Assembly: GCA_902779185.1 (NCBI GenBank)
Contig: CACZAM010000013.1
Location: 1 to 43,150, forward strand
From: an uncultured Eubacteriales bacterium
Lineage (GTDB): Bacteria; Bacillota; Clostridia; Peptostreptococcales; Anaerovoracaceae
DNA: 43,150 nucleotides
Reading direction: 5' to 3'
Shown: positions 3,478 through 32,469 of the stretch, piece after piece
Numbering within the stretch: position 1 is the stretch's first letter
How the letters are laid out: every line of letters begins with the position of its first letter
Notes under the pieces: model-generated
Told to the model about the DNA's origin: nothing
Seen by the model: the letters and a program-made list of their open reading frames with translations, nothing else
The model's database searches: none
Translations under genes and position numbers: made by a program

Positions 3478-4166
3478 TCGTAATACCTCTTTTTCACGAA
3501 ATGATTGAGGACACCGCCCACGGCTATTATAGCCAGTGCGATATATATCACCTGCAGGGCCGCATCCTGAGTGTCAGCTATAGTGCCGCCATCTTCATTC
3601 AATTCTATCATAACTGTACCGTCCGGCAGACTGTCAGCCAGAAATACTATATTTCTGTCATACCATTTCTGCTTCTTTTTACTGAAAGCGGCGCATGGGA
3701 TCTCCTTGTTGAGCGCTTCAACAGAGATGCTGAAGCTTCCGTATCCGTCCTTCTCATCTGCGGCTATCCATTCGCTGCTGTCAGCGGCGGCCGCCTGCTC
3801 CGCTGTTCCCTGGAATACATATGCGTAGCTGGTGCTCGAGATGGTTATGACAGCGTCCATTCTGCCATCTTTATTGATAAGATCAGAATGGATGATATTG
3901 AAAAAGCGCGAGTCAGATATCACGTCCGGCTCATAATCGCCCTCCCGGACATCTTCAGGGTACACTGGAGTCATGCTGTACACCAGGGTCCCGTCCTGCA
4001 GGCTCCTGTCCCTCTGAGGCGCAGATCCGCTCTCTTCGACACCTATCCCCTTTGATTCATCCTTGATAACTATAGGCTCAGCAAAAGCATCCCATATGCC
4101 GCCCGGCACAAGGATCACAAAAGTCATTATCAACGATGCTGCAATTGCTGATACGCGTTTCATCAT
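3474..4166 (-). CDS. Membrane-anchored surface protein with NEAT-like region
   Basis: A 230-residue exported protein. Residues 1-29 look like a signal peptide ending at AFA, and residues about 203-222 form a C-terminal membrane helix followed by KKRYYE, so the middle faces outside. The central region (about 80-185) contains SDSRFFNI, a KDGRM turn, ISSTSYAYVFQGTAEQA and KKKQKWYDR. The same pattern occurs in the lipoprotein at 29097-29939, so I read it as a beta-sandwich of the NEAT or NEAT-like type. It overlaps the permease gene by one base and the dehydrogenase gene by four. A role in binding a tetrapyrrole or metal complex at the surface is inferred, not shown. Confidence 0.6.
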   Translation of the reverse strand: MMKRVSAIAASLIMTFVILVPGGIWDAFAEPIVIKDESKGIGVEESGSAPQRDRSLQDGTLVYSMTPVYPEDVREGDYEPDVISDSRFFNIIHSDLINKDGRMDAVITISSTSYAYVFQGTAEQAAAADSSEWIAADEKDGYGSFSISVEALNKEIPCAAFSKKKQKWYDRNIVFLADSLPDGTVMIELNEDGGTIADTQDAALQVIYIALAIIAVGGVLNHFVKKRYYE

Positions 4167-4897
4167 CAGAGGTTCTTCTTGCGGTAAATAAATACTACTG
4201 AAATCGAGCCGAGGATCACGAGCCAGCCGGCGATCACCGCGAATCCGATCATCTCCGGCGCCTCTCCCTGAGCTATGCTTCTTATCATGCCGCTTGCCTG
4301 TGACAGCGGTATTATCTCGATGATCTGCCTGAATCCGTCAGGTATCTCCTCAGTCGAGAAGAATGTGTTGCACAGGAAGGTCATCGGCATGATTATGTAT
4401 GTATTGAATCTCGGAGCATCTGAGTATGTCTTCGCCAGGAATGACAGCACAAGGGCAAGAGTCGCGAATACCATGCCGTTGAGCAGCATGATAAAGAATG
4501 ACAGCCCGTTGAACACCAGCCCGTGTCTCACAGGAGTCGTAAGCACCAGGATCACACAGGCCGCGTACATCCCCCTGAGGCTTCCGCCGATTATCTGTCC
4601 GAGTATGAACTGCCACAGCGGAGTCGGCGATACCATCACCTGATCGAGCGCCTTCTCATATAATCTCTGCACGCTCATGTTCTGGGCGATAGCGCTGAAG
4701 CTGCCCGTCATGGTGCACATTGCCACGAGGCCCGGCACAAGGAACTGTATGTACGGCTGCCCATGGGAAGTGACTCTGATGCCGAGCCCGAAGATTATCA
4801 GGTACATCAAAGGAGAGATCATCGCCGCAACGGTGATCTTATAGAAGTCTCGTCTGAATTCGACCCATTTTTCCCAGAGTACTGTAATTATGCCCAT
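4166..4897 (-). CDS. ABC-2 type transporter permease
   Basis: A 243-residue integral membrane protein with about six hydrophobic segments. The order and motifs (FLVPGLVAMCTMTGSFSAIA, EKALDQVMVSPTPLWQFILG, IIPLSQASGMIR) are typical of ABC-2 permeases that export lipids, drugs or polysaccharides. It directly follows its ATPase with a 5-base gap and directly precedes the surface protein, so the three genes may form one exporter or surface-assembly unit inside the corrin operon. The cargo cannot be read from the sequence. Confidence 0.85.
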   Translation of the reverse strand: MGIITVLWEKWVEFRRDFYKITVAAMISPLMYLIIFGLGIRVTSHGQPYIQFLVPGLVAMCTMTGSFSAIAQNMSVQRLYEKALDQVMVSPTPLWQFILGQIIGGSLRGMYAACVILVLTTPVRHGLVFNGLSFFIMLLNGMVFATLALVLSFLAKTYSDAPRFNTYIIMPMTFLCNTFFSTEEIPDGFRQIIEIIPLSQASGMIRSIAQGEAPEMIGFAVIAGWLVILGSISVVFIYRKKNL

Positions 4898-4902
4898 CTC
4901 TT

Positions 4903-5739
4903 TTATTGCAGTTTGCGTCCTGCGACGTCTATGAATACATCCTCAAGCGTCGTCTGTCTGAGGACCGACCCTGCTCCTGTGTTTTCCAGGTAACGGATCG
5001 CTTCTTCCCTTGTAGCAAAGTGTGAACTCTTAAGGTCACCTTCACCGGTCTCATCCACTGTGAATTCTCCCAGCTCTTGAATAAGCGCCTGAGGAGAATC
5101 GAGTTTCTGCAGTCTGCCGCGGTTGATCATGGCCACCCTGTCGCACAGAGCCTCCGCTTCTTCAATATAGTGAGTCGTAAGGAGAATGGTCATGTCCCTG
5201 TTGTTGACCTGCTTGAGAAGGTTCCACATCTGACGCCTGGACAGCGCGTCCATGCCAGCTGTAGGTTCATCGAGCAGAAGTATTTCAGGCTCTATAAGGA
5301 GTGCGCGGCATATCATGAGCTTGCGCTTCATTCCGCCCGACAGATGTCTGACCGTTCTTCTGTGGTAATCTGACAGCCCCGCAAATTCGAGCAGCTTTGC
5401 GGAGCGCTCTTTGATCTGTTTGCGCGGCATATAATAAAGGCGCCCCTGATATTCCATGACCTCATCCATGGTCATATCCTGACGCATCGAATACTCCTGT
5501 GTTATGACGGCGAGCTTGCGCTTCTGCTCGGAAGCGGCTCTTGTAAGCTTAGTTCCGTCGATATATATCTCGCCCGAACTCGGAAGCAGCACGGTAGACA
5601 TCATGCTGATCGTGGTGGTCTTGCCTGCGCCGTTCGGCCCGAGCAATCCAAAGAACTCTCCCGTTTTTATCTCAAAGGAGAGTCCGTCGACAGCGGTGAA
5701 GTCACCGAATTTCTTTGTCAGCCCGCGCAGTTCGATCAT
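4903..5739 (-). CDS. ABC-2 transporter ATP-binding protein
   Basis: A 278-residue ATPase with Walker A GPNGAGKT, signature LSGGMKRK, Walker B ILLLDEPTAGMD and the switch histidine in LLTTHYIEEAE. The GMKRK signature and C-terminal extension ending TLEDVFIDVAG are typical of the drug- and lipid-export (DRA-type) subfamily rather than importers. It overlaps the stop of cbiL by one base, which places it in the corrin transcript. Its permease follows immediately. Confidence 0.9.
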   Translation of the reverse strand: MIELRGLTKKFGDFTAVDGLSFEIKTGEFFGLLGPNGAGKTTTISMMSTVLLPSSGEIYIDGTKLTRAASEQKRKLAVITQEYSMRQDMTMDEVMEYQGRLYYMPRKQIKERSAKLLEFAGLSDYHRRTVRHLSGGMKRKLMICRALLIEPEILLLDEPTAGMDALSRRQMWNLLKQVNNRDMTILLTTHYIEEAEALCDRVAMINRGRLQKLDSPQALIQELGEFTVDETGEGDLKSSHFATREEAIRYLENTGAGSVLRQTTLEDVFIDVAGRKLQ

Positions 5740-6455
5740 CAGATGCTGCTTTCTTTCTTTTCTTTAGCGATTATCAGGGTGAAGTAGCCCGCTTCATCCG
5801 GTATCTCATCGACTGACCTGTAGAGCTTTTCGTTCTCCATGCTGCAGTTTTCAGCCGCGATCACATCATAGCCCGATGACGAGAGCTTTTTCTTTACCTC
5901 AGGCATTCTGCTCGCTGACTTCATGAGGACGTAATTGCCTGGCCATTCCAGAGCGCCTTCATGCGTATTGTGAAGAGCAGGCATCACATGCAGCGATTCA
6001 TTCCACTCCGTGAGCGATGTTCCCAGCCTTGCCGCCGCCGCGCAGAACGAAGGGATGCCGCTGACCAGCTCCACATCGTATCCGTCAGCCTCAAGTATAT
6101 GCTGTATATAGCTGAATGTGCAATAAATCGTCGAATCACCGAGTGTAAGGTAAACGACATTGCGACCGGAATCCAGATAACACTTGATCAGAGCAGCCGC
6201 TTTTGCATGGCTTTCCCTTATGACCTCCCTGTCCCTCACCATAGGCATATAGACAGGCACCAGCTCCTTCTCCGCGAGCTCAGGCACAGCCTGCACCGCA
6301 ATCTTATACGCGACCGCTTCCTGCGGAACTTTTCCCGGCACGGCGATCACATCATTCTCACGTATCAGCCTGCATGCTTTCAGCGTCATCAGTTCCGGGT
6401 CTCCCGGGCCTACGCCTACGCCATACGCAATGCCCTTTTGTTTTTTATCGTTCAT
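5739..6455 (-). CDS. cbiL: Cobalt-precorrin-2 C20-methyltransferase CbiL
   Basis: A 238-residue SAM-dependent tetrapyrrole methylase. The N-terminal GVGVGPGDPELMTLKA and the mid-protein LTLGDSTIYCTFSYI are characteristic of CbiL/CobI, which methylates C20 of cobalt-factor II or precorrin-2. The ATG at 6455 is chosen because AGGAG lies 8 bases before it; the ATG at 6461 is too close to that site, and a further start at 6509 would overlap the upstream gene with non-family residues. It lies 25 bases after the cobA-hemD fusion. Confidence 0.9.
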   Translation of the reverse strand: MNDKKQKGIAYGVGVGPGDPELMTLKACRLIRENDVIAVPGKVPQEAVAYKIAVQAVPELAEKELVPVYMPMVRDREVIRESHAKAAALIKCYLDSGRNVVYLTLGDSTIYCTFSYIQHILEADGYDVELVSGIPSFCAAAARLGTSLTEWNESLHVMPALHNTHEGALEWPGNYVLMKSASRMPEVKKKLSSSGYDVIAAENCSMENEKLYRSVDEIPDEAGYFTLIIAKEKKESSI

Positions 6456-6480
6456 TTGCATCTCTCCTGTATTTGCCTGC

Positions 6481-8031
6481 TTAGCTTTCTTTACCGGTAA
6501 GTTCTTCACTTGCCTGCATAAGCCTTTCTGCCAGAGATATAAGAGTAGCTTCTTCAGATATCCATACCTTCATGCTGTGCTTCTCTGCTTCAGCTGCTGT
6601 CATGGCTCCAATGCACACAGCCTTTACTGCGGAATGGTCCATAGCCGGATAAGCGCTGACAAAACCTCTTACTCCTGAAGCGCTGGTGAACAGCGCAAAT
6701 GTATGAGGATCAGCGAGCTCCTTCGCCGCGTCGAACCATACCGGCGCGCGGTACACGGTGTCATAGGTGGCAATATCGTCGATGACGACGCCTTCCGGCT
6801 TTGAAAGTTCCTCATTGAGAGCCTTGTTTCCTATGGCTGCCCTTGGAATGAGCACCTTGTCTCCCGCCCTGAGCAGTTTGCTGAGCTCTGCGCCGAGAGT
6901 GCGTCCGTCGAATCTTGAAGGCAGCATGTCTGCATGTATGCCTCTTTTTGCGAGTTCCGATTCGGTGCCTTTTCCTATCGCGGCTATCCTGCAGCCCGCA
7001 AGCACTCTTGCATCAGCTGTCTTCATCAGCTCATCAAAGAACACCCTCGCGCCGCTCGGGCTTGTGAGTACGACCCACTGATAGTATCCCTCTTTCAGCT
7101 TTCCGATCGCGTCCTGCAGCCTGTCATTGTCTCTTACAGGTTCTATGCCTATGACCGGGACTTCAATAACTTCTGCGCCTCTTTTACGGAGCATCAACGC
7201 CAGTCCCGATGAGAGTTCCCTCGGTCTGGTCACTACGGCCCTGACACCGTTCAGAGGCAGGCTGCCGCGCCATCCGAACCGCTCCGCCAGTCCTGCTACA
7301 GCTCCTATTACGATCACAGCCGGTGCTTCAGCATGCCTGATCTCTGCAGTCTCTTTAAGATGAGTCAGGTCAGTAGTCAGCACTCTCTGTGATGAAGTCG
7401 TACCCTTCTCCACGATAGCTGCAGGAGTATCTTCTGCCATCCCAGCGTCAAGGAGTCCGCTCATTATTATGTCAATCGTGGACATACCCATCAGAAAGAC
7501 GAGCGTGTTGCCTGTCTCAGCGAGGGCTTTGAAATTTACATCCAGAACGCCGTTGCTTCTCCTGTGTCCGGTTATGACAGAAACGCCCCTGCAGAAGTCC
7601 CTGTGGGTCACAGGTATGCCTGCATATGCAGGAGCCGCGAAAGCGCTTGTCACTCCCGGCACTATCTCGAAATCGATGCCGTTCTGCACAAGCAGCTCGA
7701 GTTCTTCTCCGCCGCGCCCGAAAAGGAATGGATCTCCGCCCTTGAGCCTGACTACCCTTTTGCCTTCGAGAGCTTTCTCAAGCAGAAGAGAGTTTATTTC
7801 CTCCTGCCTCATGGTATGATTTCCGGCGCGTTTGCCAACGTATATGAGCTCAGCCTTTTCAGGCAGAAGCGACATCATTCCGCCCCTTACAAGAGCGTCA
7901 TAAATCACCACATCCGCCTCTGCAAGCACCTCTTTGCCCTTAAGAGTGATGAGTGACACCTCTCCCGGCCCGGCTCCGACAAGCCATACTTTGCCATTCT
8001 CTTTGTTAACACATATATTATTATCGCTCAT
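6481..8031 (-). CDS. cobA-hemD: Uroporphyrinogen-III methyltransferase / uroporphyrinogen-III synthase fusion
   Basis: A 516-residue fusion. Residues about 13-250 are a SUMT/CobA methylase: VGAGPGEVSLITLKG, YVGKRAG, VVRLKGGDPFLFGRGGEE, and GIPVTHRD are all diagnostic. It makes precorrin-2 from uroporphyrinogen III. Residues about 260-516 are a HemD domain (PLNGVRAVVTRPR start, VVLTSPSGARVFF, FALFTSASGVRGF), which closes hydroxymethylbilane to uroporphyrinogen III. The order CobA-HemD in one chain is known from Clostridia and Bacilli. The gene overlaps the stop of hemC by 11 bases, giving the ordered set hemB, hemC, cobA-hemD. Confidence 0.95.
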   Translation of the reverse strand: MSDNNICVNKENGKVWLVGAGPGEVSLITLKGKEVLAEADVVIYDALVRGGMMSLLPEKAELIYVGKRAGNHTMRQEEINSLLLEKALEGKRVVRLKGGDPFLFGRGGEELELLVQNGIDFEIVPGVTSAFAAPAYAGIPVTHRDFCRGVSVITGHRRSNGVLDVNFKALAETGNTLVFLMGMSTIDIIMSGLLDAGMAEDTPAAIVEKGTTSSQRVLTTDLTHLKETAEIRHAEAPAVIVIGAVAGLAERFGWRGSLPLNGVRAVVTRPRELSSGLALMLRKRGAEVIEVPVIGIEPVRDNDRLQDAIGKLKEGYYQWVVLTSPSGARVFFDELMKTADARVLAGCRIAAIGKGTESELAKRGIHADMLPSRFDGRTLGAELSKLLRAGDKVLIPRAAIGNKALNEELSKPEGVVIDDIATYDTVYRAPVWFDAAKELADPHTFALFTSASGVRGFVSAYPAMDHSAVKAVCIGAMTAAEAEKHSMKVWISEEATLISLAERLMQASEELTGKES

Positions 8032-8923
8032 AATTCATCATCCTGTACGCAAGCTCTCTCCCGAGCGCTTCGGCATCTGATGCCGGGCCGCAGATACTGT
8101 CTTTCAGCACTTTTTGCCTTTCAGCATCGTATCTCAGGCACATTATTTTTATCTGATCACCGCTGATCTGCGCAAATGCCGTATCAGGCGAGCCGCAGTC
8201 CGCGCCGATCGCTTTGACAAATGCCCTCTCAGCGAGCGCGCATCTTCCGGAGTCAATATCATTGATTTTGCCGATAAGAGCTGTGCTCTCACCTGCTCTT
8301 GTCTGAATTCCCAGTATTCCCTGACAGGCCGCCGGGATCATCTCTTCAGGGCTGAAATACCTGCTTATCCTGTCTTCCAGACCCAGTCTCTTAAGACCGG
8401 CGGCCGCAAGCACCAGCGCTGAATACTGACCTTCATCAAGCTTGCGGAGTCTGGTCTCCACATTGCCCCTTATAGGAGCAGTAGTAACTTCGGGCATCAG
8501 CTCTTTTATCTGAAGGGAACGTCTGAGGCTCGAAGTGCCGACAGGAAGCGACCTGTCTATTTCGGTATTTCCCGCAGGCAGAACGAGCACATCCCTCGGA
8601 TCTTCTCTGTGGGAAAAAGCAGCTAGCGGAAGGTCTTCCGGAATTACTCCCGGAAGGTCCTTGAGGCTGTGTACGGTGAGATCGACTTCCCCGGCTCTCA
8701 GAGCCTCATCGAGCTCCTTTACGAAAAGCCCCTTTCCTCCGATCTGATCGAGTGTTTTATCCAGAATTTTGTCGCCCGTGGTCTTCATGGTGACCAGCTC
8801 AGCTTTTACTCCCGGGCAGGCATCTTCTATCTGCCTAATCACTATCTCAGACTGTATCACCGCAAGCCTGCTGGCCCGGCTCCCGACTCTTATTATGTTT
8901 TTTATGCTTTTGTCGTCCGTCAT
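8021..8923 (-). CDS. hemC: Porphobilinogen deaminase (hydroxymethylbilane synthase)
   Basis: A 300-residue HemC. It polymerises four porphobilinogens to hydroxymethylbilane. Visible family features: GSRASRLAVIQS at the N-terminus, the catalytic Asp in HSLKDLP (residue 89), arginine-rich TSSLRRSLQ, and IRGNVETRLRKL. The cofactor-binding cysteine is in the segment GADCGSP (Cys243); the family usually has GGCQVP here, so the local sequence is slightly unusual but the Cys is present. It lies 10 bases after hemB. Confidence 0.95.
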   Translation of the reverse strand: MTDDKSIKNIIRVGSRASRLAVIQSEIVIRQIEDACPGVKAELVTMKTTGDKILDKTLDQIGGKGLFVKELDEALRAGEVDLTVHSLKDLPGVIPEDLPLAAFSHREDPRDVLVLPAGNTEIDRSLPVGTSSLRRSLQIKELMPEVTTAPIRGNVETRLRKLDEGQYSALVLAAAGLKRLGLEDRISRYFSPEEMIPAACQGILGIQTRAGESTALIGKINDIDSGRCALAERAFVKAIGADCGSPDTAFAQISGDQIKIMCLRYDAERQKVLKDSICGPASDAEALGRELAYRMMNYER

Positions 8924-22769: not shown

Positions 22770-24359
22770 TCATATCCTTATGGTCTTATCGGCCAGCCCG
22801 CTTACCATATCGTTCAGCATGTCTAGCGTCTCCGCGTAAAAACGGGTCTCTTCATCAAATGATTCTTCGATCTCAAAGTGGTTGCTGACGATAACGAGGT
22901 TCCCGGCCCGCTGCGCGATCCGTTTGATATCTTCATATAGCCTTCCGAGCATTTCATCTCTGCCGGAACGTCTTTCAAACAGTTCATTCGCGACGAGATT
23001 TGACAGGCATTCAAGCAGCACGGTCATGTCGCCAAGCCTGCTTCCATTGCTCATGTTATATTCACTCAGCGAGCTGCAGATATCGAAAGGAGCTTCGATC
23101 GTGATAAAGCCCTTTCCGTACCTCATCATGCGGTGCCTCTCGACCCGTTCCCTGCCTTCTTTGCCGTACGGGATCATCGTCGCGACATATATCCTGTGGT
23201 CAGGATCTGACAGCTCCGTTACGATATTCTCAGCCATGGCCGACTTGCCGCTGTTCGGTGTGCCGATGATAAATACAGTAGTACCGCCTGCGGATTCCGC
23301 GTCAAAGTCATGATACTGCTCGACCGTCGTATCCGCAAAGCTGAGCCCCTTTGAATAAAGGGCAAGCACTGTGTCAAGCACAGGCATGAGCATGACAGCA
23401 CCGGTGCCCTCACCAAGCGCGAGCATGCCGTCGATGACAGGCTCCAGACCGAGTATGTCGAGTATATACTTCATGCCCGGCTCCTTTCCCATGTGAGAAG
23501 CTATCATGAAGTTTCTGGTCCCCGGCACCAGCCTTTCAGCGATCAGAGCGGCTACAGCGCTTATGAAACCGTCTATGATCACAGGGATGTGGTTCATCGC
23601 GCCTCCGATAAAAACTCCGGCAAGGCCTGCTATATCTAGGCCTCCTACGCACGAGAGCATGTGCATAGCGTACTCGGGACTTGCTCTTCCGGTCTCATCG
23701 GCAGGATCATATTTTTCAAGAGCAGCGCTGATCACCTGCGTCTTTTTTCTGAGTCCTTCGTTACTGAGACCCGCGCCCCTGCCGGTTACGGTATCAGCGT
23801 CCAGACCGAGAAGAGCAGCGGCAAGAGCCGAACTTGTCGTAGTATTGCCTATACCCATCTCCCCGGTAGCCAGCAGCCTGTAGCCTCCGGCGCTGCAGTC
23901 GCAGACTATGTCGATCCCGGCCTCTATGGCCTGCATGCACTCATCTTCAGTCATGGCAGGCTCATGCGCGAAGTTCCTGGTGCCCTTCATCACCTTGCGG
24001 TTTATGACACCCTTCGGGCTGCCTTCCATATTGATGCCGACATCAACAGGAATGGTATCGGCTTTAGCTTCTCTGGCCATGCGGCAGACAGAGCTCTCGC
24101 CCCTTCCCATCCATTCGGCGACAGCGCGGGTCACGTCCTGTCCGGACTGGCTCACGCCTTCGGCGACTATGCCGTTGTCAGCGCACATGATAATGACGGC
24201 GCGCTTCCTTATATCTATATCAGCCGAGCCCTGTACCGCGCCTATGCGCGCCGTGATCTCCTCAAATCTGCCGAGACTGTTAAGCGGCTTCGCGATGCTG
24301 TCCCATCTGGCTCTGATCTCGTCGTATTTATCTTTGTCAAAAGGTACTATGTTGATCAA
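22770..24359 (-). CDS. cobT-cobU: CobT-CobU fusion: lower-ligand phosphoribosyltransferase / cobinamide kinase-guanylyltransferase
   Basis: A 529-residue fusion. Residues 1-350 are nicotinate-nucleotide:base phosphoribosyltransferase CobT, with [42 protein letters not shown], and the catalytic Glu317 in ALGEGTGA. Residues about 360-529 are CobU: P-loop GTPNSGKS (366-373), [11 protein letters not shown] with the nucleotidylated-His region, and [12 protein letters not shown]. One chain therefore activates both halves of the nucleotide loop: the lower base and the cobinamide. The CobU P-loop is slightly unusual (GTPNSGKS; the family usually has GGxRSGKS). It overlaps cobQ by four bases. Confidence 0.93.
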
Positions 24360-25849
24360 AATGCTGCCTCCCTGAGCATGGAGTAAATGCAGTCCATATC
24401 GAGATTTTCCCTCAGAATGACCGCCAGCCTGTCGTATTCCTTCTCTTTGAATTCCCTGTGGCCTGAAGAATCTCCGCCACTGAGCACAACACCCTTTCTC
24501 TCTGCCAGTGCATTAACAACAGCGGCAGCAATGCCTTCCCTGTCGAACACTCCGTGTATGTACGTTCCGTAAACATCGCCCTCACAGACACCGGTATCAT
24601 CCGATGTAAAGTCTGATGAACACTGAGCGATGCAGCCGTCAGGGAAGGTCCTTCCCATATGGATCTCATAGCCTTCTATCTCAAGTCCGGAGAGCGCTTC
24701 GAAAATGCCTTCGACCTTTTCGAATCTTCCGCTGAACTGCTCAGTCCGCTTTTCTCCGGCAAGCACTGTGATGACCGGCAGAAGGCCAAGTCCGCTGACT
24801 TCTCCGCCACCCTCTACACCTTCAGGATCGGATACTTCGACCCCGAGCATCTGGTATCCTCCGCAGATACCGAATACGGGAACGCCTTCCTTTTTCATTC
24901 TGAGCATCTCACTGTCAAAGCCGTTTTCACGCAGCCATGTGAGGTCAGCGATAGTGCTTTTTGATCCCGGAAGAACCACCATGTCAGCGCCACTGAGTCC
25001 GGCAGTTTCCGATACATACCGCACGGATACGTCCGGGAACTGCTCAAACACATCGAAGTCGGTGAAGTTGGATATCTTAGGCAGCCTTACGACCGCTATG
25101 TCCACCAGGCCCCGGCGGTTTGCGGAGAGCCTGTCCGAAAGTGAGTCCTCATCCTCCACCTTTATATCCATATAAGGCACAGTACCGATTACAGGCACTC
25201 CGCCCTTTTCCTCGAGCATCTCTATGCCGCTGTCCAGAAGCGACGCGTCGCCTCTGAATTTATTGATTATGAGTCCCTTGACTCTTTCCTTTTCATTATC
25301 CTCAAGGAGCATCAGCGTACCGAGCAGCTGCGCGAAAACTCCTCCCCTGTCTATGTCTCCGACCAGCAGCACCGGCGCGTCCACCATTTCGGCGAGTCCC
25401 ATGTTAACGATGTCATTTTCCTTAAGGTTGATCTCGGCAGGAGAACCCGCGCCTTCGATCACGATTATATCGAACTGATCCTCGAGTTTGCGGAATGCCT
25501 CCTTAATGACAGGGATCAGTTCTTTCTTGAATCTGAAGTAATCGCGCGCCTTCATATTGCCTATCGATTTTCCGTTTATGATCACCTGCGAGCCCTGGTC
25601 GTCTGTCGGCTTCAGGAGTATTGGATTCATGCAGACCAAAGGATCGGTCCCGGCAGCTTCAGCCTGCACCACCTGCGCGCGGCTCATTTCAAGGCCTTCC
25701 TTCGTCGCAAAGGAATTGAGCGCCATGTTCTGGGATTTGAAAGGCGCCACCCTGTATCCGTCCTGTCTGAAAATGCGACACAGTCCCGCGGCAAGAAGGC
25801 TCTTGCCGGCATTTGACATCGTGCCCTGTACCATTATTACCTTAGCCAT
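24356..25849 (-). CDS. cobQ: Cobyric acid synthase CobQ/CbiP
   Basis: A 497-residue amidotransferase that adds four amides to adenosylcobyrinic acid diamide. [13 protein letters not shown] with the P-loop variant, [20 protein letters not shown], the glutaminase nucleophile Cys329 in [10 protein letters not shown] and a late TYIHGVFD give a full-length, intact enzyme. It overlaps the BtuD-type gene by 8 bases, so uptake and biosynthesis are translated from the same message. Confidence 0.95.
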
Positions 25850-26627
25850 TTTTTTCTATGCTCTTTACAAAACCCGAATAAACTTCCCTGAGTCTTCCGT
25901 CTCCCAGGCTGTACAGACTGCTAATTAGCTCATCCGTGAATACCTCTTCAGGACTCCCGGTTTTCACGACTTTTCCATCAGCGGAGACACATATCACCTT
26001 GTCCGCTATGAGATGCGCGAGCTCGAGCTCGTGCATCGACATTATCACGCCTATCTCCTTCTCCTGAGTGAGGCTCCTCAGCAGGTCGAGGAATTCCAGC
26101 TTGTGCCTGATATCCAGATAGGATGTCGGCTCATCGAGTATCATTATTTCAGGCTCCTGACAGATCGCTCTGGCCAGCAGCACTCTCTGTCTCTGTCCGT
26201 CGCTGATATGGTCATAATTCCGGTCAGCCAGCTCTGTCACATGCACCAGTTCCATGGTGTCGCGGACGATCTTTTTATCGTTTTCCGAGAGTATGCCGAG
26301 CCTTCCGGTGTATGGATACCTTCCGAGCGAGACCACCTCTTCACAGGTCATCTTCTCCGCAGGCTTTCTCTCCGTGAGCATCACGGCCTGCTTTTTCGCT
26401 ATATCCGTAAGACTGTATGCTGATCGCTCCGCGTCCCCTATATAAATGGTTCCGGCTATAGGCTCGAGCTGCCCTGCTATCGTCTTGAGGACTGTCGACT
26501 TGCCTGCGCCGTTCGGACCGATCAGCGTCACGATTTCACCCGGCTGCACCAATAATTCCGCGCCGGCGACTATCACCTTGTGCCCGTACCCCGAATCGAG
26601 GCGCTCAGCTCTTATAACCGATCTCAT
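25842..26627 (-). CDS. ABC importer ATPase, BtuD/FecE type
   Basis: A 261-residue ATPase with Walker A GPNGAGKS, signature ISDGQRQRV, Walker [13 protein letters not shown] and switch histidine SMHELELA. These features mark the siderophore/cobalamin importer class. The gene follows the permease after 4 bases. The location directly before cobQ and in a riboswitch-led cluster argues for a corrinoid or cobalt-tetrapyrrole substrate, but heme or a siderophore cannot be excluded by sequence. Confidence 0.9.
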
Positions 26628-26631
26628 GACA

Positions 26632-27636
26632 TCACCTCTTCTTTCGTCCGATAAGCATCGCTATCACCACCGGAGCTCCAAAGACAGCTGTCATTGAGCT
26701 GATGCTCATTTCAGTCGGCGCGAACAGGCTCCTCGCGAGCAGATCGCAGAAGAGGCAGAACACCGAGCCGCCCAGGAAGCACTGAGGAATCATGACAACA
26801 GGCTTAGACGTGTCAGTTATCGATCTTATGATGTGCGGCACTGCTATCCCAACGAATGATATCGGTCCCGCGAAAGCTGTGACTGTCGCTGACAGAATGC
26901 TTGAGAGAGTTATAAGACCGATCCTGAAAGAGCGGATATCCACTCCGACACTGACCGCGTACTGCTCACCCATCTGGAATGCGTTCATCGGCTTTGAGAG
27001 CAGGAATGAGACTATCACGGCTATCAGTACAACAAGCGCTATGACGCTGATGTTGTCCCAGCTGACAGCCGAAAAGCTCCCCATCGACCAGTTATGAAGA
27101 TTCACTATATTGGAATCGTCCGCGAATGTGACGAGGAATTCCGTGACTGCCGAGCATATGTATCCGACCATGACGCCGCAGACTATCAGCACGGCCATGC
27201 TCCTCACCTTGCCCGAGATCAGCAGTATCACTCCCGTGACAGCAAGCGAGCCCGCAAAAGCAGCGATGATCATAACAAGCGAGTGCACCATCATGCCGTG
27301 GCTGAGCGCGAATATCATGACACACGCCACTACCAGTTTAGCGCCGGAGGAGATGCCGAGTATATAAGGCCCGGCGATCGGATTCGCGAAAAAGGTCTGC
27401 AACAGAAATCCGGATACAGAAAGAGCTCCTCCGAGAAGAGCCGCCGCAAGGATCCTAGGCATGCGTATATCCCATACGATCTTGCCGTATTTGGATACCG
27501 TGTCATGCGAAAAGAGTATCTTTAAGGCATCCCCCATCGTCATCGAGGAGCTTCCTATAAGTATATTCAGTAGTATCAGTACCAGGAGCAGAACTCCCAG
27601 CAAAGCGTAGCACGCTTTGATCCTGCTGTTTCTCAT
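26632..27636 (-). CDS. ABC importer permease, FecCD/BtuC type
   Basis: A 334-residue protein with about ten hydrophobic segments and FecCD signatures: VWDIRMPRILAAALLGGALS, GAPVVIAMLIGRKK at the end, and FVGIAVPHIIR. It forms the membrane pore of a type II importer. It lies 15 bases after its binding-protein gene and 4 bases before the ATPase gene. Confidence 0.92.
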   Translation of the reverse strand: MRNSRIKACYALLGVLLLVLILLNILIGSSSMTMGDALKILFSHDTVSKYGKIVWDIRMPRILAAALLGGALSVSGFLLQTFFANPIAGPYILGISSGAKLVVACVMIFALSHGMMVHSLVMIIAAFAGSLAVTGVILLISGKVRSMAVLIVCGVMVGYICSAVTEFLVTFADDSNIVNLHNWSMGSFSAVSWDNISVIALVVLIAVIVSFLLSKPMNAFQMGEQYAVSVGVDIRSFRIGLITLSSILSATVTAFAGPISFVGIAVPHIIRSITDTSKPVVMIPQCFLGGSVFCLFCDLLARSLFAPTEMSISSMTAVFGAPVVIAMLIGRKKR

Positions 27637-27651
27637 CAGTTCACCCGCCGT

Positions 27652-28812
27652 TTAGTCCAGCCTGTGGAAATACTCCATGCCGCTGTCATCCGCGGCGCCC
27701 GCAAAAATCTTATTCATTTCAACTATCATATCAGCTGCGCCGGTTGTCCTCTGGAATGTGCTGGCATCGGTGCACCACACATTTCCGTTCTTTACCGCCG
27801 CAAAATCGCTGAATCTGTCTGACAGCGCGATCAGGTCACTCATACCTGACAGGCCGCCTTCAATGGTGCTGTTATAGATGAGTATATCAGCATCCACAGC
27901 TTTATCATAGAACGCTTCCATCTGCATGTTCATAGTCGAAAGCGCATTGTCATCTTCATTTGCGATATCGTTAAGGGCATAAGTCCCTCCGGCCGTTTCT
28001 ATCATCTTTGTTACATAGTCTCCCGGCTTTCTCACGACTACCGAGCCGTTTGAGTTGACCGAGAAGAAAGCCACTGAAGGCGCCTTCTCAATGGCATCGG
28101 TGTCCACAGCTTCTACCTTCGCCACGGCCTCATCGAAGAACTTCTGCGCCTCTTCATCCTTTCCGAAAAGGAGGCCATACAGCCTGATCCATTCCAGTCT
28201 TCCCAGCGGGTCCGATTCGTAGCTCGATCTTTCCACAAGCACCGGGATCCCAAGCTCTTCGATAGCTTCCTTAATCTGCGGACTGTGATATATCATGGTG
28301 GACTCTATCGCGAGGTCCACATCACCCTCAAGCAGCGCCTCATAATCCGGCGCGCGGTATTTGCCAATGTAGCGGATCGTGCCGTCCTCCACAAGATCTT
28401 TGATCTTCCCAATTCCCCAGTCGCTTGCCTGAGTGCTGGTCATGACGACCGAGTCAAGCGCTCCTGCCGCATCGATGAGATCCATTGCTGATGAAGCGGC
28501 GTTGTACACCTTATGCGTCGGAGCAGCAATTACGGTCATACCGCTGAGCTCATCCTTTGGCAACCATTCCGGCAAAGCCTCCGCATCCTCAGTCACAAGA
28601 TATCTGAGGCCATCCTCTACTGTGACCACCGAAATGCCGTCTTCATAGTAATCCACATGGAACTGATCCGCATACTTCAGCTCCATCGAACCCGTGAGAT
28701 GCTCATCCCAGGCACCGGCAGAGCCACCTTCTTCAGCGCTACTGCCGCATCCGCTCAGCGGAAGCGTCAGACAAAGCAATATGATTAATAAAAGTGTTTT
28801 TAATGCTTTCAT
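27652..28812 (-). CDS. ABC importer substrate-binding lipoprotein, BtuF/FepB type
   Basis: A 386-residue lipoprotein. The signal peptide ends in the lipobox LSGC (Cys22). The mature part has a class III binding-protein layout: an N-lobe with the TSTQASDWGIGKIKDL segment, a long linking helix (LEWIRLYGLLFGKDEEAQKFF) and a C-lobe. It would pass its ligand to the FecCD-type permease. The ribosome site is weak (a GGGGA about 13 bases upstream). The 54-bp tandem repeat lies directly in front of the gene, and may affect its expression. Confidence 0.88.
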   Translation of the reverse strand: MKALKTLLLIILLCLTLPLSGCGSSAEEGGSAGAWDEHLTGSMELKYADQFHVDYYEDGISVVTVEDGLRYLVTEDAEALPEWLPKDELSGMTVIAAPTHKVYNAASSAMDLIDAAGALDSVVMTSTQASDWGIGKIKDLVEDGTIRYIGKYRAPDYEALLEGDVDLAIESTMIYHSPQIKEAIEELGIPVLVERSSYESDPLGRLEWIRLYGLLFGKDEEAQKFFDEAVAKVEAVDTDAIEKAPSVAFFSVNSNGSVVVRKPGDYVTKMIETAGGTYALNDIANEDDNALSTMNMQMEAFYDKAVDADILIYNSTIEGGLSGMSDLIALSDRFSDFAAVKNGNVWCTDASTFQRTTGAADMIVEMNKIFAGAADDSGMEYFHRLD

Positions 28813-28821
28813 CTAAGAGTA

Positions 28822-29055
28822 TTATTCCCCATCAGCCATACACCGTATGGCTATACCGTATGCCAAGTCCCGGAAATCATGTACCGCGCACATACACAGT
28901 ATGGCTGCGTTGTATGCTAAATCCCGAAAATCATGTGCCGCGCACATACACAGTATGGCCATACCGTATGCCAAGGAGCAGAATAATACCTCTTTGCACA
29001 TACAGAGTATGGCCACACTGTATGCCGGACCGCGGTAAAACAGTCCGGCGCACAT
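28822..29055 (-). CDS. Possible small Cys-rich repeat protein (uncertain)
   Basis: A 77-codon open frame made almost entirely of the tandem repeat: because the unit is 54 bp, it reads as four 18-residue repeats of the form MC....F..-AY..AI.C. An AGG lies 8 bases before the ATG at 29055. All three plus-strand frames have similar repeats open too, so openness is not proof of coding. No family is recognised. I list it because it is a readable and periodic frame, but a non-coding role of the repeat is at least as likely. Confidence 0.2.
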   Translation of the reverse strand: MCAGLFYRGPAYSVAILCMCKEVLFCSLAYGMAILCMCAAHDFRDLAYNAAILCMCAVHDFRDLAYGIAIRCMADGE

Positions 29056-29062
29056 ACAATTT
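28837..29062. repeat. 54-bp tandem repeat with small palindromes
   Basis: Four full units and a fifth partial unit with an exact 54-base period: the motif CATACNNNGTATG starts at 28837, 28891, 28945 and 28999, and CATAC recurs at 29053. Each unit has a 5-bp triloop inverted repeat, and some units carry an additional GTATGGCCATAC palindrome. It fills most of the 284-base gap between the NEAT-like lipoprotein gene and the BtuF-type gene. No -35/-10 pair, terminator or second riboswitch was found in this gap. Confidence 0.85.
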
Positions 29063-29096
29063 ACCTGCAGCAGGCAGCTTGTCCTTGCCAGGCAGC

Positions 29097-29939
29097 TTAC
29101 TTTATTGAAGAAGAATCGAATAAAAGCGTATATTCGATCTCATGCGGCTCGCTCATCGCGGTGGTATCCGCGATCACTTCAAGCGGGCTGTCCAAAGACG
29201 CGACCGGTATCTCGAATACCGAGTTGCCGTCGGTGTTCACCGGCTCGTATTTCTGTCCGTCCACTATCATATAGTCATAGTACGGGCTGCTCCAGGTGAT
29301 GACCGCGATGATCTCATCCCCGCTTTTGCGTATCACAGCCGGGCTGTCTACCGAAGCTTTGCCGGTGCCGCCTTCGAGAGTGACCTCGATGGTATGCTCT
29401 CCATCAGCTATATCAGGCACTGCAGCACTGCCCTCTGCGGCATCCCCGTTTATGACCGCCTGGATATCGTCACCTTCTACAGGGTCAGATACGATCACTT
29501 TGTGGTCGTACCAGTTGCCGTGAGTTCCTATGAGCGCTACGTCAAACTCCTCGTCAAGCGCAGGCACAGGGATGTCATAACCGTACACCTCATCTTCATA
29601 GCCATCGCTGTAAATGACTTTATCGATGGTTGGCTCGAGCAGTTCAGCACCTTCCTTTTGGGCATCCTCTGCCGGTCCCGGATAGAGATTTACTATCTTC
29701 TTGGACTGAAGGCTGACGTGGATCGTCATCTTCCCGTCCTTGACAGTCAGTATGCCTCTGTCCTGATTGGCCTCGCTGACATGGAACATCGTGCTATCTG
29801 ATTTGAAGGTAGCGACATACGTGCCGTCAGCGATACCCGGATCAGCAGCCTTCTCCGTGCCGCCGCAGCCTGCTGTCATGAGCATTGCCACGGCAAGTAC
29901 AACATATAAAAGTATTCGGGATAATCTGAGTTTTTTCAT
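29097..29939 (-). CDS. Lipoprotein with two NEAT-like domains
   Basis: A 280-residue lipoprotein with lipobox MTAGC (Cys25). Two repeats follow. Repeat 1 (about 37-150) starts IADGTYVATF and contains SDSTMFHVS, KDGKM, NLYPGPAEDA, IPVPALDEEF and NWYDHKVIVSDP. Repeat 2 (about 165-278) starts IADGEHTIEV and contains SSPYYDYMIVDGQKY, FEIPVASLD and HEIEYTLLFD. The layout is that of NEAT or NEAT-like beta-sandwiches, used by Gram-positive bacteria to bind heme at the surface; the YYDYM segment is where a NEAT ligand tyrosine would lie. It stands between an exported CbiK and a BtuFCD-type importer, so a tetrapyrrole-relay role is inferred. The family assignment needs a profile search. Confidence 0.65.
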   Translation of the reverse strand: MKKLRLSRILLYVVLAVAMLMTAGCGGTEKAADPGIADGTYVATFKSDSTMFHVSEANQDRGILTVKDGKMTIHVSLQSKKIVNLYPGPAEDAQKEGAELLEPTIDKVIYSDGYEDEVYGYDIPVPALDEEFDVALIGTHGNWYDHKVIVSDPVEGDDIQAVINGDAAEGSAAVPDIADGEHTIEVTLEGGTGKASVDSPAVIRKSGDEIIAVITWSSPYYDYMIVDGQKYEPVNTDGNSVFEIPVASLDSPLEVIADTTAMSEPHEIEYTLLFDSSSIK

Positions 29940-29975
29940 TCCTTGAACCTGTTGTTCAGTCTGCGTTCATTCAGC

Positions 29976-31214
29976 CTACTGCGCCATTGCCTCAGCGGTA
30001 TGAGCAGTGTAGAGCTTCTGTACGTCTTCGATCCTTCCGAGTCCTGCGATCTGGCAGCTTACATTGTCAGCACCGAGTCCCGCGCCTACATCTACAGCTT
30101 CATCAGCGCCCTCGACTTCGAATTCGCCGCCATTGACAAATCCATAGTACCAGGTGCCTTCCTCATCGCCGGCCATGTCGTTGTTGGCGTGGTCACCTGC
30201 TACTACCATCAGAGGTCTGAGGATCACCTTTTTGTATCCGGCATCCTCAAGAGCTTTCTTCACTGCAGGGAATGCTGTGTCTTCAGGCTTGCCTTCTACT
30301 GTGCCTACGAATACGTTGCTGTATCCGAGCTGCTTCATCTGCTCCTGCATCTGGTCGTAAGTGACAGCAGCCTGGTGTGACGTGCCATGTCCCAGTAATA
30401 CGATTGCGGTACCGTCCGCAGCCGCGGCGTCGAGCGAGTCGAATCCGGCTTCTGAAACAGCCTGCGCAACTACAGCCCTGGCAACTGCTTCCTTGTCAGC
30501 GTTAACTACAGTTGCGTCCTCGCCTACGGTTCCGAGAAGCGGCTCCGCGAGCTTGACTGTCTCGAATTTATCTTTATAGCTGTCGAGCGCTGCGATGAGT
30601 TCATCATACTCCGCGCCGTGCATCAGGTGCGTCGGCTGTACTACGAGGTTCTTTACTCCGTTGTCTGCAGCTCTCTGAAGAGCCTGATCAACGTTGTCGA
30701 TCTTCTCGCCGTCACGCGCATAGATGTGATTGATGATGATCTGTGCAGTAAACGCTCTTCTGACTGACCAGTCAGGATTTGCTGCCTGGAGCGCCTTCTC
30801 TATGCCACCGATGTCCTCCGCGCGGCTGTCATTGAACGATGTGCCGAAGCTCACGACGAGAAGCTCGTTTTCGCCGATGTCATCCTGGTTGAGCGGATCG
30901 TCCTTGGAAGCGTCGCCTGTATCTCTTCCGAAATAATCAGGGCTGGCTTCTTCACCCTCAACCTGCTCTTTCTGTTCATCTGTCAGAGCGTCCCATGCTG
31001 CTTTAGCAGCTTCACACTGTGCGTAAGTATCCTCTGTGTAATTCTGAACATAGATAGCATCGATCAGGGCAGCACATTCTGCAACAGGATCCGCCGATTC
31101 TTCTGCAGCAGGTTCTTCAGTCTGTGCTTCATCGTTGCTTCCGCACCCCGCCAGAAGCGAGAACGAGAGGATCATAGCCAGTCCAAGCATCAAAACCAAT
31201 AACTTTTTCTTCAT
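29976..31214 (-). CDS. Exported CbiK-type cobaltochelatase lipoprotein
   Basis: 412 residues from the ATG at 31214 (AGGAG 8 bases before it; longer readings run back into the riboswitch leader). A signal peptide ends in the lipobox LLAGC (Cys24), so the protein should sit outside the membrane. Residues about 40-90 are an acidic helical linker (WDALTDEQKEQVEG). Residues about 115-412 are a complete CbiK domain: LVVSFGTSFNDSR, VVQPTHLMHGAEY, His276 in LLGHGTSHQ, Glu307 in GTVEGKP and His342 in VAGDHANNDMAG, the metal- and substrate-binding set of CbiK. CbiK inserts cobalt into sirohydrochlorin; outside the cell this is odd and scavenging or metal removal is a possibility. It is the first gene after the riboswitch. 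Confidence 0.88.
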   Translation of the reverse strand: MKKKLLVLMLGLAMILSFSLLAGCGSNDEAQTEEPAAEESADPVAECAALIDAIYVQNYTEDTYAQCEAAKAAWDALTDEQKEQVEGEEASPDYFGRDTGDASKDDPLNQDDIGENELLVVSFGTSFNDSRAEDIGGIEKALQAANPDWSVRRAFTAQIIINHIYARDGEKIDNVDQALQRAADNGVKNLVVQPTHLMHGAEYDELIAALDSYKDKFETVKLAEPLLGTVGEDATVVNADKEAVARAVVAQAVSEAGFDSLDAAAADGTAIVLLGHGTSHQAAVTYDQMQEQMKQLGYSNVFVGTVEGKPEDTAFPAVKKALEDAGYKKVILRPLMVVAGDHANNDMAGDEEGTWYYGFVNGGEFEVEGADEAVDVGAGLGADNVSCQIAGLGRIEDVQKLYTAHTAEAMAQ

Positions 31215-31260
31215 GTCGATATTCTCCTTTTCAACTATGAATAATTTCGGCTTTCTCATT

Positions 31261-31293
31261 AAAAAAGCCTCTTTCCACTCACGGCAAAAAGGC
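31261..31293 (-). terminator. Intrinsic terminator in the riboswitch leader
   Basis: On the minus strand an 8-bp stem (GCCUUUUU pairing with AAAGAGGC, one G-U pair) is followed by six U residues. It lies between the riboswitch and the start of the exported CbiK gene, so it is the likely expression platform: high cobalamin would favour termination. A perfect GGAGCA-T-TGCTCC palindrome (31305-31317) lies just upstream; GAAACAG (about 31394-31400) can pair with CUGUUUC (31297-31303) as part of an alternative fold. Confidence 0.75.
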
Positions 31294-31410
31294 GACAGAA
31301 ACAGGGAGCATTGCTCCTTCTTGACTGTACGACCAATTCCACGTGATCGGGAAACCGCCTTATCCGCCCAAGGCACTGCCGGCCGGATGCAGGCTGTTTC
31401 CTGTACTTAA

Positions 31411-31590
31411 GCACCGGCAGGTCTCCTGGCTGAAGAACTTACCATATCAGTCCGCCTTCCCGGGATGCTTTACACTTCCCAGTGACATAATGGGCTGACA
31501 CGCTCTATCACAGTGACGGGATCGCGCGGGATTCACACCCGCTTCCCTATTCTCCCCGCCTGCTAACGGGGCACCGGAACTTCATATATT
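31411..31590 (-). ncRNA. Cobalamin riboswitch
   Basis: Read on the minus strand the leader contains the B12 box AGCCAGGAGACCUGCC (31416-31431), the core GCGGGUGUGAAUCCCGC, a GUCACUGUGA segment and CACUGGGAAG followed by CCGGGAAGGCGG, in the order of the adenosylcobalamin-class aptamer. The gene-free stretch 31215-31659 is made up of this aptamer, a terminator, a promoter and a palindrome. It controls the exported CbiK gene and probably the uptake and cob genes after it. Edges are approximate. Confidence 0.95.
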
Positions 31591-31596
31591 TAATTA

Positions 31597-31659: not shown

Positions 31660-32469
31660 CTATAGCTGCCCGTCTAAAGATGCGATCGCTCTATCAGCGT
31701 GATCAGCGTAGATGCTCCTGACTGCCGGCAGCTGACCCAGGCCCTCAATGATACACAGCGTTTCATATCCTTCAGCGGTAAAACGCGAGTACCAGGAATC
31801 CGGATCGTCAGGTGATGCCATATCGTTTACCGCGTGGTTTCCGGCAACAAGCATCAATGGCCTCAGCACTACCCTTTTATAGTGCCCTCTGCGGACATCT
31901 CTGATCACATCATCAAGTGATGGTTTGGCTTCTACAGTTCCTACGAAGTAATCTTCCTTTCCCTTGCTGTCAAACGCGGCCTGCATCTTATCGTAGATTC
32001 CGTTTGCGGCAGCTTCAGTACCATGCCCCATGAGCACGACAGCAGTCTCTCCGTCCTCATATCCGGCAAAAGCATCAATAAGCGCATCTGCGACTCTGTC
32101 GAAATCTTCATTAGAGGTGAGAAGCGGATCGCCCATAGCGACCCTGGCAAATGAGTCCGCCTGATCTTTCAGCATTACGCAGAGCTTATCGTACTCAATG
32201 CCTTTCATCAGGTGTGTTGGCTGTACAACAAGGTTTTTAACGCCTGTGGCAGCAGCCCTTTCCAGCGCCTCGGCGATGTTGTCAATTTTGATGTCTTCCT
32301 TCCGGGCTATGATATTTATGACAGTCTGCGAAGTGAAGCATCTGCATACGCTCCACTCTTCTCCGGCAGCTTCGCGTATTGCCTGCTCAACATATTCTAT
32401 ATTCAGCCGGCGGCTCTCAGCAGAAGTTGTGCCGAAGCTCACTACAAGCAGTTCATTTTCAGTAATCAT
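31660..32469 (-). CDS. cbiK: Sirohydrochlorin cobaltochelatase CbiK (cytosolic)
   Basis: 269 residues from the ATG at 32469; it has no signal peptide, unlike its neighbour. ENELLVVSFGTTSAESR, VVQPTHLMKGIEY, His149 in LMGHGTEAA, Glu180 in GTVEAKP and His212 in VAGNHAVNDMAS give a full CbiK active site. It inserts cobalt into sirohydrochlorin, the entry step of the anaerobic corrin branch. A longer reading to 32607 would overlap the upstream methyltransferase by over 100 bases. It closes the methyltransferase unit, 19 bases after it, and no clear terminator follows. Confidence 0.92.
   Translation of the reverse strand: MITENELLVVSFGTTSAESRRLNIEYVEQAIREAAGEEWSVCRCFTSQTVINIIARKEDIKIDNIAEALERAAATGVKNLVVQPTHLMKGIEYDKLCVMLKDQADSFARVAMGDPLLTSNEDFDRVADALIDAFAGYEDGETAVVLMGHGTEAAANGIYDKMQAAFDSKGKEDYFVGTVEAKPSLDDVIRDVRRGHYKRVVLRPLMLVAGNHAVNDMASPDDPDSWYSRFTAEGYETLCIIEGLGQLPAVRSIYADHADRAIASLDGQL

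Follow-up and report, generated by a model that had tools for sequence, protein, structure and literature searches.

Why should a cobalamin riboswitch head a set of genes that encodes an exported chelatase and an importer? The question is raised by an uncultured Eubacteriales bacterium of the Anaerovoracaceae (contig CACZAM010000013.1), whose DNA was analysed over a stretch of 43,150 nucleotides, called the window below. On its minus strand a riboswitch (31399–31593) is followed by genes for an exported lipoprotein CbiK of the class II cobaltochelatase fold (29976–31214), a lipoprotein with two NEAT-fold domains (29097–29939), a substrate-binding lipoprotein (27652–28812), a FecCD-family permease (26632–27636) and the ATPase of an ATP-binding cassette (ABC) importer (25842–26627). 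The next gene of the operon is cobQ (cobyric acid synthase, 24356–25849, minus strand), which overlaps the ATPase gene. The answer which the distribution of these genes makes fairly probable is that they form a cassette which, under control of the B12 riboswitch, acquires cobalt for de novo B12 synthesis and stands in for the energy-coupling factor (ECF) cobalt transporter CbiMNQO.

A reading made from the DNA letters without database searches (the sequence-only reading) had already placed riboswitch, lipobox-bearing CbiK, NEAT lipoprotein, FecBCD-family importer and cobQ on one strand, and this layout was confirmed by Rfam, Pfam, NCBIfam and structure modelling. The riboswitch (RF00174, 119.9 bits against a cut-off of 31.5) is the sole Rfam match above cut-off in the window. 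The exported CbiK matches PF06180 with 210.9 bits (cut-off 26.2), the binding lipoprotein matches Peripla_BP_2 with 111.2 bits, permease and ATPase match their Pfam families with 264 and 103.6 bits, and CobQ matches NCBIfam PRK00784 with 639.8 bits. The name BtuFCD, which had been proposed for the importer, holds at the family level but not below it: BtuC is the best NCBIfam model for the permease, at 212.1 bits against a cut-off of 334. The binding protein resembles IsdE weakly (22.9 bits against 298.65, NCBIfam), and a sequence search of the PDB gave no match for it at E ≤ 0.01.

Conservation of the cassette and its alternation with cobalt-type CbiM

Related loci were collected by scanning the genome_contigs collection with an alignment of exported CbiKs. 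Gut Clostridia, Lachnospiraceae among them, account by record title for most of the best 80 loci out of at least 593 stretches encoding CbiK relatives; Eubacterium ramulus, Faecalibacterium longum, Gemmiger formicilis, Pseudobutyrivibrio and Butyrivibrio are represented. One metagenome-assembled genome (MAG) is labelled Spirochaetaceae. Removal of L064 by the core-offset rule left 79 loci. Sixty loci were chosen by exported CbiK alone, with at least 6 kb of sequence downstream. NEAT domain A was present in all 60 and domain B in 52, binding protein and FecC permease in 49 each and the ATPase in 48, and all five parts occurred together in 46. A second subfamily of exported CbiK, from the family sample described below, is accompanied by a NEAT domain in 21 of 21 cases and by the binding protein in 20 of 21. 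In contrast, control regions, taken around cytosolic CbiK or from cytosolic-only genomes, contained no NEAT domain (0/64) and a single binding protein (1/64, in L190). These statistics put the gene arrangement far beyond chance. An earlier survey of the window's own family found a CbiK match in 27 of 99 genomes, and the gene maps show the same gene set in many of them. The combination is widespread, and the lack of co-occurrence in other genomes that would have counted against the sequence-only reading was not observed.

The riboswitch lies directly upstream of the exported CbiK gene in 34 of 36 further loci scanned in four sets (8/9, 5/6, 14/14 and 7/7), the last two sets, 21 loci together, having been picked from the 80 by size and for isolates. 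One miss is a contig that ends 372 bases upstream (L049), and the other is a lipoprotein CbiK beside a different importer (L036).

Gene fusions join the parts further. CbiK is fused to NEAT-A in 23/79 loci, and NEAT-B to the binding protein in 26/79; CbiK–A–B fusions occur in L083 and L123, and A–B–binding-protein fusions in L093 and L100. Domain A is therefore paired mostly with CbiK and domain B mostly with the importer, a division that suggests a relay. Six ATPase proteins were read over their whole length; those of L077, L104 and L105 carry a fusion to CobQ and those of L094 and L132 one to CbiD, which links the importer with corrin synthesis. Co-occurrence and fusions thus both lend strong support to a joint action of exported CbiK, NEAT lipoprotein and importer.

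The relation to B12 synthesis was examined in a Lachnospiraceae-type family, represented by 250 genomes that are at least 90% complete, roughly one for each genus. A class-wide sample of 293 genomes, 88 of them with a CbiK match, contained too few exported CbiKs and served solely to choose this family. Of 183 CbiK matches 182 were used, a 261-nt fragment in G543 being left out, and the short type was classed from the N-termini as read. Exported CbiK is found in 80/250 genomes, and CbiD in 79 of these 80 compared with 66 of the 170 others (Fisher 6e-23). The 145 CbiD genomes divide into 51 with exported CbiK only (one of them, G443, with a partial second CbiK match), 28 with both CbiKs, 57 with cytosolic CbiK only and 9 with no full CbiK, two of the last (G543 and G603) holding broken or contig-edge CbiK pieces. 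Cobalt-type CbiM occurs in 0/51, 6/28, 39/57 and 0/9 of these classes, respectively; that is, in 6/79 CbiD genomes with the cassette and 39/66 without exported CbiK (p = 1e-11).

Doubtful frames were also counted in other ways. Besides the frames called cobalt-type, 7 CbiM frames were called ambiguous between cobalt and nickel, among them those of two exported-only and two cytosolic-only genomes; counted as cobalt, they change the contrast to 8/79 vs 41/66. Addition of weak CbiM matches gives 11/79 vs 41/66 (p = 1e-9), or 2/51, 9/28 and 40/57 for the exported-only, both and cytosolic-only classes. Counting any CbiM or NikM-like match (24/79 vs 47/66, p = 1e-6) leaves the contrast weaker but present, while the nickel-like long CbiM frames, taken as a control, show no such pattern (16/79 vs 15/66, p = 0.84). 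In the window's family, cobalt-type CbiM is present in 5/5 cytosolic-only genomes and 0/16 exported genomes, the window's own included; a weak CbiM match in G076 (25.1 bits) is uncounted here, and three of the 16 (G011, G095, G036) have a lipoprotein CbiK without the same importer beside it.

In 26 of 46 genomes a listed cytosolic CbiK has a CbiM, of cobalt type (45) or ambiguous (1), no more than 6 kb away. Mapped onto a tree of 73 CbiD proteins, the cassette states change at least 8 times, 6 of these changes being forced by well-supported branches; since 40 family genomes were preselected as exported-only or cytosolic-with-CbiM, the tree counts switches and not rates. Because exported CbiK and cobalt-type CbiM alternate across genomes, they mark two exchangeable cassettes, an ion importer with a cytosolic chelatase and a surface chelatase with NEAT domains and a chelate-type importer. 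Three loci from genomes with cobalt-type CbiM (L035, L140, L149) carry CbiK behind an ABC-ATPase-like part in frames of about 555–570 aa, and were taken from their N-termini as CbiO–CbiK fusions.

Fifty cassette genomes, many of them MAGs, were picked from the 80 loci for isolates and long contigs. CbiD is present in 50/50 and CbiM of any kind in 18/50; the exported CbiK is the sole CbiK found in 34/50, and all 47 CbiX matches fall inside CbiK places, with no separate CbiX.

Several points weigh against a cobalt cassette that replaces CbiMNQO. The exported type in the 250 genomes was defined by length (a match of at least 813 nt in a frame of at least 380 aa), signal peptides not being read singly, and cobalt-type and nickel-like CbiM were split by frame length under a rule from recall, matches below 40 bits being left out. 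The sampled genomes are related, although there is about one per genus. Cobalt-type CbiM is also missing from 27/66 CbiD genomes without the cassette, so other cobalt routes exist, and it is present in 6/28 genomes with both CbiKs. The window's genome itself has a cytosolic CbiK, and at 79% completeness the absence of CbiM from it is weak evidence. Eleven of the 60 CbiK-chosen loci have no binding protein downstream, and known NEAT domains bind heme, as PDB titles also state. Finally, calling the exported CbiK the only chelatase in 34/50 genomes is provisional: the search covered CbiK and CbiX in those 50 genomes, many of them MAGs, and not CbiX in the 250-genome sample, nor CobN, CysG/Met8-type enzymes or NiCoT transporters. 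A missed cytosolic chelatase would remove the argument, made below, for a cobalt-tetrapyrrole formed outside the cell.

Exported CbiK and the NEAT lipoprotein

The frame of the exported CbiK begins at ATG 31214 and comprises a signal peptide, the lipobox LLAGC with Cys24, a low-confidence linker, a small N-terminal helical region and the chelatase domain. Cys24 and the active-site residues H276, E307 and H342 are invariant among 11 aligned exported CbiKs, and the His/Glu/His motifs are kept in 79/79 homologues, in agreement with the intact active site described in the sequence-only reading. Three structures are closest to the model (predicted local distance difference test, pLDDT, 83.7). Salmonella CbiK 1qgo matches it with a template-modelling (TM) score of 0.90, normalised by 1qgo. 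Target-normalised scores are 0.85 both for 2xvx, the periplasmic CbiK (CbiKP) of D. vulgaris, presumably the product of cbiK in the Desulfovibrio B12-element operon, and for 9b86, FetB of P. gingivalis. FetB is also the best PDB sequence match (112 bits); we take it to be the same protein as IhtB. The NCBIfam equivalog SiroCoChCbiK (cut-off 400 bits) is reached neither by the exported CbiK (163.9) nor by the second CbiK of the window (205.2). The nearest named relatives of the exported protein come from rumen and gut MAGs, an uncultured Clostridiales (92%) and a Mogibacterium sp. (90%), so that the bacterium of the window probably lives in an animal gut.

A permissive lipobox pattern precedes the chelatase core in 72/79 exported CbiKs. 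Of the other seven, two carry plain signal peptides (L084, L126) and two are truncated by the start of their contig (L062, L091); in L096 and L112 the lipobox is CGC, which escaped the pattern, and L122 is unplaced. The predicted location is thus an exported one, and not the cytosolic one that would have counted against the sequence-only reading. A cytosolic isoform made from an internal start was considered and rejected as a conserved feature: an internal ATG with a Shine–Dalgarno (SD)-like site is present in 13/79 loci at varying positions, and any of ATG, GTG or TTG with such a site in 39/79, with no fixed place. An internal start codon of any kind, with or without an SD-like site, is found in 66/79 loci; inspection by eye of the linker in the window revealed no in-frame ATG, GTG or TTG. 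A second, cytosolic form is thus not conserved, yet it may exist in some genomes.

The second CbiK gene (31660–32469, minus strand; Pfam 229.3 bits) lies just upstream of the riboswitch and had not been mentioned in the sequence-only reading. With its start set at the ATG before ITENELLV, the protein has no signal peptide and is taken as cytosolic. The two CbiKs are the only ones found in the source genome, which is 79% complete.

Some loci show other arrangements of CbiK. In L043 (9932–11728) one frame encodes a 598-aa lipoprotein with two CbiK domains, followed by a NEAT protein and importer. In L050 a short frame resembling the start of exported CbiK, with its own riboswitch (384–986), lies about 7 kb upstream of a full riboswitch–CbiK pair (7320–8911). 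In L041, from the same genome, two cassette-type binding proteins, FecC and the ATPase surround a 269-aa CbiK without signal peptide, and the exported CbiK and NEAT protein of this genome are on the separate contig of L050. In L190 (G441) a 509-aa CbiK that lacks a signal peptide adjoins a binding protein and FecC of the cassette type; the locus has no NEAT domain and is a possible intermediate.

The AlphaFold2 model of the second lipoprotein (mean pLDDT 86.9) consists of two beta-sandwich domains, A (about residues 38–155) and B (about 178–276). All 15 best PDB matches of the model in Foldseek are NEAT proteins, and IsdX1 aligns over 122 columns with TM 0.70, normalised by IsdX1. Sequence search of the PDB gave no matches, and profile search gave weak matches to unrelated proteins alone (best E 0.036), so the fold search was decisive for this identity. 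Pfam NEAT (PF05031) yields one sub-threshold match in the window protein (23.1 bits against 32.8), and E ≤ 0.01 in 22 of 28 family members (best E 1.4e-8). As judged from the model, the lipoprotein has the NEAT fold, and the two NEAT-like repeats noticed in the sequence are borne out.

Invariant residues in an alignment of the 28 members include Y144, H146 and V148 in domain A and H266 and Y270 in domain B. We take YxxxY in the last strand of known NEAT domains to be the heme-ligand motif. At the corresponding position, which was placed by strand order (strands 143–155 and 264–275 of the model) and not by superposition and is likewise an assignment of ours, domain A has Y144xxxV148 and domain B has H266xxxY270 instead of YxxxY.

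The gap that separates the NEAT gene from the gene of the binding protein holds three copies of the repeat GGCATAC...GGCCATAC...GTATG (28837–29026, minus strand), in part with a 54-base period, and the pattern has no other occurrence in the window. Downstream of the riboswitch, 9 terminator-like hairpins were found in the region, compared with 5.6 in shuffled sequences. The cassette is embedded in a large anaerobic B12 cluster, with hemB/hemC/cobA-hemD and a sirC-like gene at its low end and B12-linked methyltransferase genes at its high end; some of these names come from Pfam and others were read from translations.

Cargo of the importer and competing readings

The association with CbiD and the alternation with cobalt-type CbiM favour cobalt destined for B12 synthesis over heme or salvaged corrinoid, and they narrow the ligand, which the sequence-only reading had left broad. 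A course of events consistent with the parts can be proposed. At low adenosylcobalamin (AdoCbl) the riboswitch would permit expression of the cassette, and the lipoprotein CbiK on the outward side of the membrane would capture Co(II), which it would probably insert into sirohydrochlorin or a closely related tetrapyrrole. This ligand would then be handed from NEAT-A, the partner of CbiK, to NEAT-B, the partner of the binding protein, and on to the binding lipoprotein, after which the FecCD/ATPase importer would bring it into the cell for use by the corrin pathway. According to a review, hardly any cobalt enters sirohydrochlorin without a catalyst at the buffered cobalt level of the cytosol, and CbiK keeps the insertion going (PMC7689651). 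If the cassette indeed serves cobalt uptake, a cobalt-tetrapyrrole is the likelier cargo, with free Co(II) a serious second; import of an externally made cobalt-tetrapyrrole is favoured because 34/50 cassette genomes have no second CbiK or separate CbiX and because the NEAT fold would suit a carrier.

The origin of such a tetrapyrrole may be indicated by genes at the far end of the B12 cluster, all on the minus strand. They encode a NEAT-like membrane protein (3474–4166; no Pfam match, so named because it resembles the A domains of relatives), an ABC-2 permease (4166–4897; ABC2_membrane, 77.7 bits) and its ATPase (4903–5739; ABC_tran, 115.3 bits), flanked by a SirC-like gene (3013–3477) and CbiL (5739–6509). 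The frames beside CbiL had also been considered as an ECF cobalt transporter; this was ruled out, as Pfam shows an ABC-2 exporter in the window. Together with the NEAT-like protein the ABC-2 system is a candidate tetrapyrrole exporter. In related loci the row reads CbiL, ATPase, ABC-2 permease, often CbiK, NEAT, SirC, HemC, CobA-HemD, and in L064, L066 and L071 the CbiL/ABC-2/SirC row directly follows exported CbiK and the NEAT lipoprotein. Homologues of the permease are found in these three and also in L042, L043, L044, L053, L054, L061, L074, L114 and L124.

It is tentatively conceivable that this exporter sends out metal-free sirohydrochlorin (or a relative), that surface CbiK loads it with cobalt, and that the NEAT relay and the FecBCD importer return cobalt-sirohydrochlorin to CbiL. 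Besides the missing second chelatase in 34/50 genomes, there are two hints of such a cycle. Among loci holding HemC or CobA-HemD, a small sample in which several loci share a genome or come from sister genomes, 10/10 from cassette genomes and 0/8 from cytosolic-only genomes have the exporter; within 2.5 kb of CbiL it is present in 11/22 and 0/22, respectively. The residue after AMSxP in NEAT-B of the 80 loci is His in 66 of 73 domain matches and Val in 5, whereas in the nine exporter-side NEAT-B copies listed it is Val or Leu in 8 and His in one (L124). This difference would fit a metal-free ring going out and a metalated ring coming in. The window's own exporter-side protein has an A-like domain only, which weighs against the contrast, and the sample is small, with repeated lineages. 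Against the cycle, the other 11/22 CbiL-holding loci of cassette genomes have no exporter within 2.5 kb of CbiL, and the 20 CbiD regions inspected in exported-only genomes showed none. If the cycle is true, the cell's own B12 precursor serves as a cobaltophore and cobalt insertion is moved outside the cell.

Rather unlikely is the variant of the cobalt reading in which exported CbiK and NEAT domains scavenge Co(II), the importer carries the ion itself, and a cytosolic CbiK or other chelatase inserts it. This has a precedent in CbtJKL, according to the available excerpt (PMC7689651). A cytosolic CbiK does accompany the cassette in 28/79 CbiD genomes and in the window's genome, but 34/50 cassette genomes show neither a second CbiK nor a separate CbiX, and the catalytic residues of the exported protein are intact in all 79 homologues. 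The NEAT fold, moreover, is known for binding tetrapyrroles.

Of about equally low probability is corrinoid salvage, where NEAT domains, CbiK as a tetrapyrrole clamp and the binding protein would capture cobalamin, cobinamide or analogues for a BtuFCD-like importer. The B12 riboswitch, BtuC as the nearest curated permease model and the fusion of some ATPases to the late corrin enzyme CobQ would all suit it. However, a salvage system would be expected in auxotrophs too, whereas the cassette is nearly confined to makers of the corrin ring (79/80); salvage also leaves the exclusion of cobalt-type CbiM unexplained and makes an intact chelatase site needless.

Improbable is acquisition of heme or metalloporphyrin as by P. 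gingivalis Iht, in which exported CbiK would strip or swap the metal of NEAT-delivered heme and the importer would take metal or porphyrin. The best PDB sequence match, FetB, is a structurally characterised CbiK homologue that is exported, and it points this way, as do the NEAT fold and the weak IsdE similarity of the binding protein. Replacement of YxxxY by YxxxV in domain A and HxxxY in domain B points the other way, and this Isd- or Iht-like reading was lowered because of the riboswitch (34/36 loci), the CbiD tie and the fusions of the ATPase to CbiD and CobQ. In Iht such a lipoprotein is likewise joined with binding protein, permease and ATPase, as the available part of the source describes (PMC10913741). 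Very improbable is a role of exported CbiK in making or altering a metallo-tetrapyrrole outside the cell for some other use, with a separate ligand for the importer: the part available of a review reports FetB-dependent manganese protoporphyrin IX (MnPPIX) in P. gingivalis (PMC13402209), but the CbiK–NEAT-A and NEAT-B–binding-protein fusions link the enzyme to the importer, and the genes are under B12 riboswitch control.

Relation to known systems

Isd-type heme uptake shares with the window the tandem NEAT fold. Isd systems also combine a binding lipoprotein with a FecCD-type importer, as here; the window differs from them in the residues at the presumed heme-ligand motif and in its corrin context. 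CbiMNQO with cytosolic CbiK supplies cobalt to the early-insertion B12 pathway, a need that the cassette would meet too, but by an integral-membrane ion importer and cytosolic chelation, and it alternates with the cassette across genomes.

That the combination is not a described system, as the sequence-only reading supposed, appears to hold for the form with NEAT domains; the rest is partly foreshadowed, as far as the excerpts tell, by Iht (PMC10913741) and the Desulfovibrio B12 element (PMC545781). In the excerpt on Iht (IhtA-E), a CbiK-homologous surface lipoprotein acts with a periplasmic binding protein, permease and ATPase, and removal of iron from heme is suggested (PMC10913741). The window has the same four kinds of protein. 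Iht, unlike the window, has a TonB receptor and a heme/iron link, and the excerpt mentions no B12 riboswitch; a Pfam scan of ten neighbouring proteins in the window found no IhtA-like TonB-dependent receptor. Conversely, the window cassette has NEAT domains and a cobalamin riboswitch, and its relatives have corrin-gene fusions.

In Desulfovibrio a B12 element precedes cbiK-cbiL and btuCDF, and cbtX was proposed as a different candidate cobalt transporter; delta-proteobacteria with cbiK, except Geobacter, are described in the same excerpt as lacking known cobalt transporters (PMC545781). The window resembles this case in its CbiK fold (2xvx) and in a B12 element ahead of cbiK and btuCDF-type genes. 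Desulfovibrio is a diderm, and no NEAT domains are mentioned in the excerpt (PMC545781). CbtJKL of S. meliloti, with a BtuF-like binding protein and an ABC importer under an adenosylcobalamin riboswitch, transports Co(II) according to the excerpt, which mentions no exported chelatase or NEAT domains (PMC7689651). The window likewise has a BtuF-family binding protein and an ABC importer under a cobalamin riboswitch, a likeness that holds at the family level. In the open-access literature, with subscription papers mostly uncovered, no paper was found that joins CbiK with a NEAT domain or a NEAT domain with a cobalamin riboswitch.

A genome survey lists, in the part available, 13 B12-making species without an assignable cobalt transporter (PMC2667541). 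A gut-microbiome reconstruction, likewise available in part, lists CbiK/CbiX simply as a pathway gene (PMC6593275), and exported forms were therefore presumably counted as the cytosolic enzyme. If the reading as a cobalt cassette is true, a large set of gut and rumen Clostridia gets its cobalt via a surface chelatase and a chelate importer, many "CbiK" annotations denote an external enzyme, and a core biosynthetic pathway may carry out one of its steps, the insertion of a metal, beyond the cytoplasm. Genomes with exported CbiK only open the question to a direct test. The parts of the cassette are of known kinds; what appears to be new is a Gram-positive, NEAT-containing, B12-regulated cassette that is distributed as an alternative to CbiMNQO.

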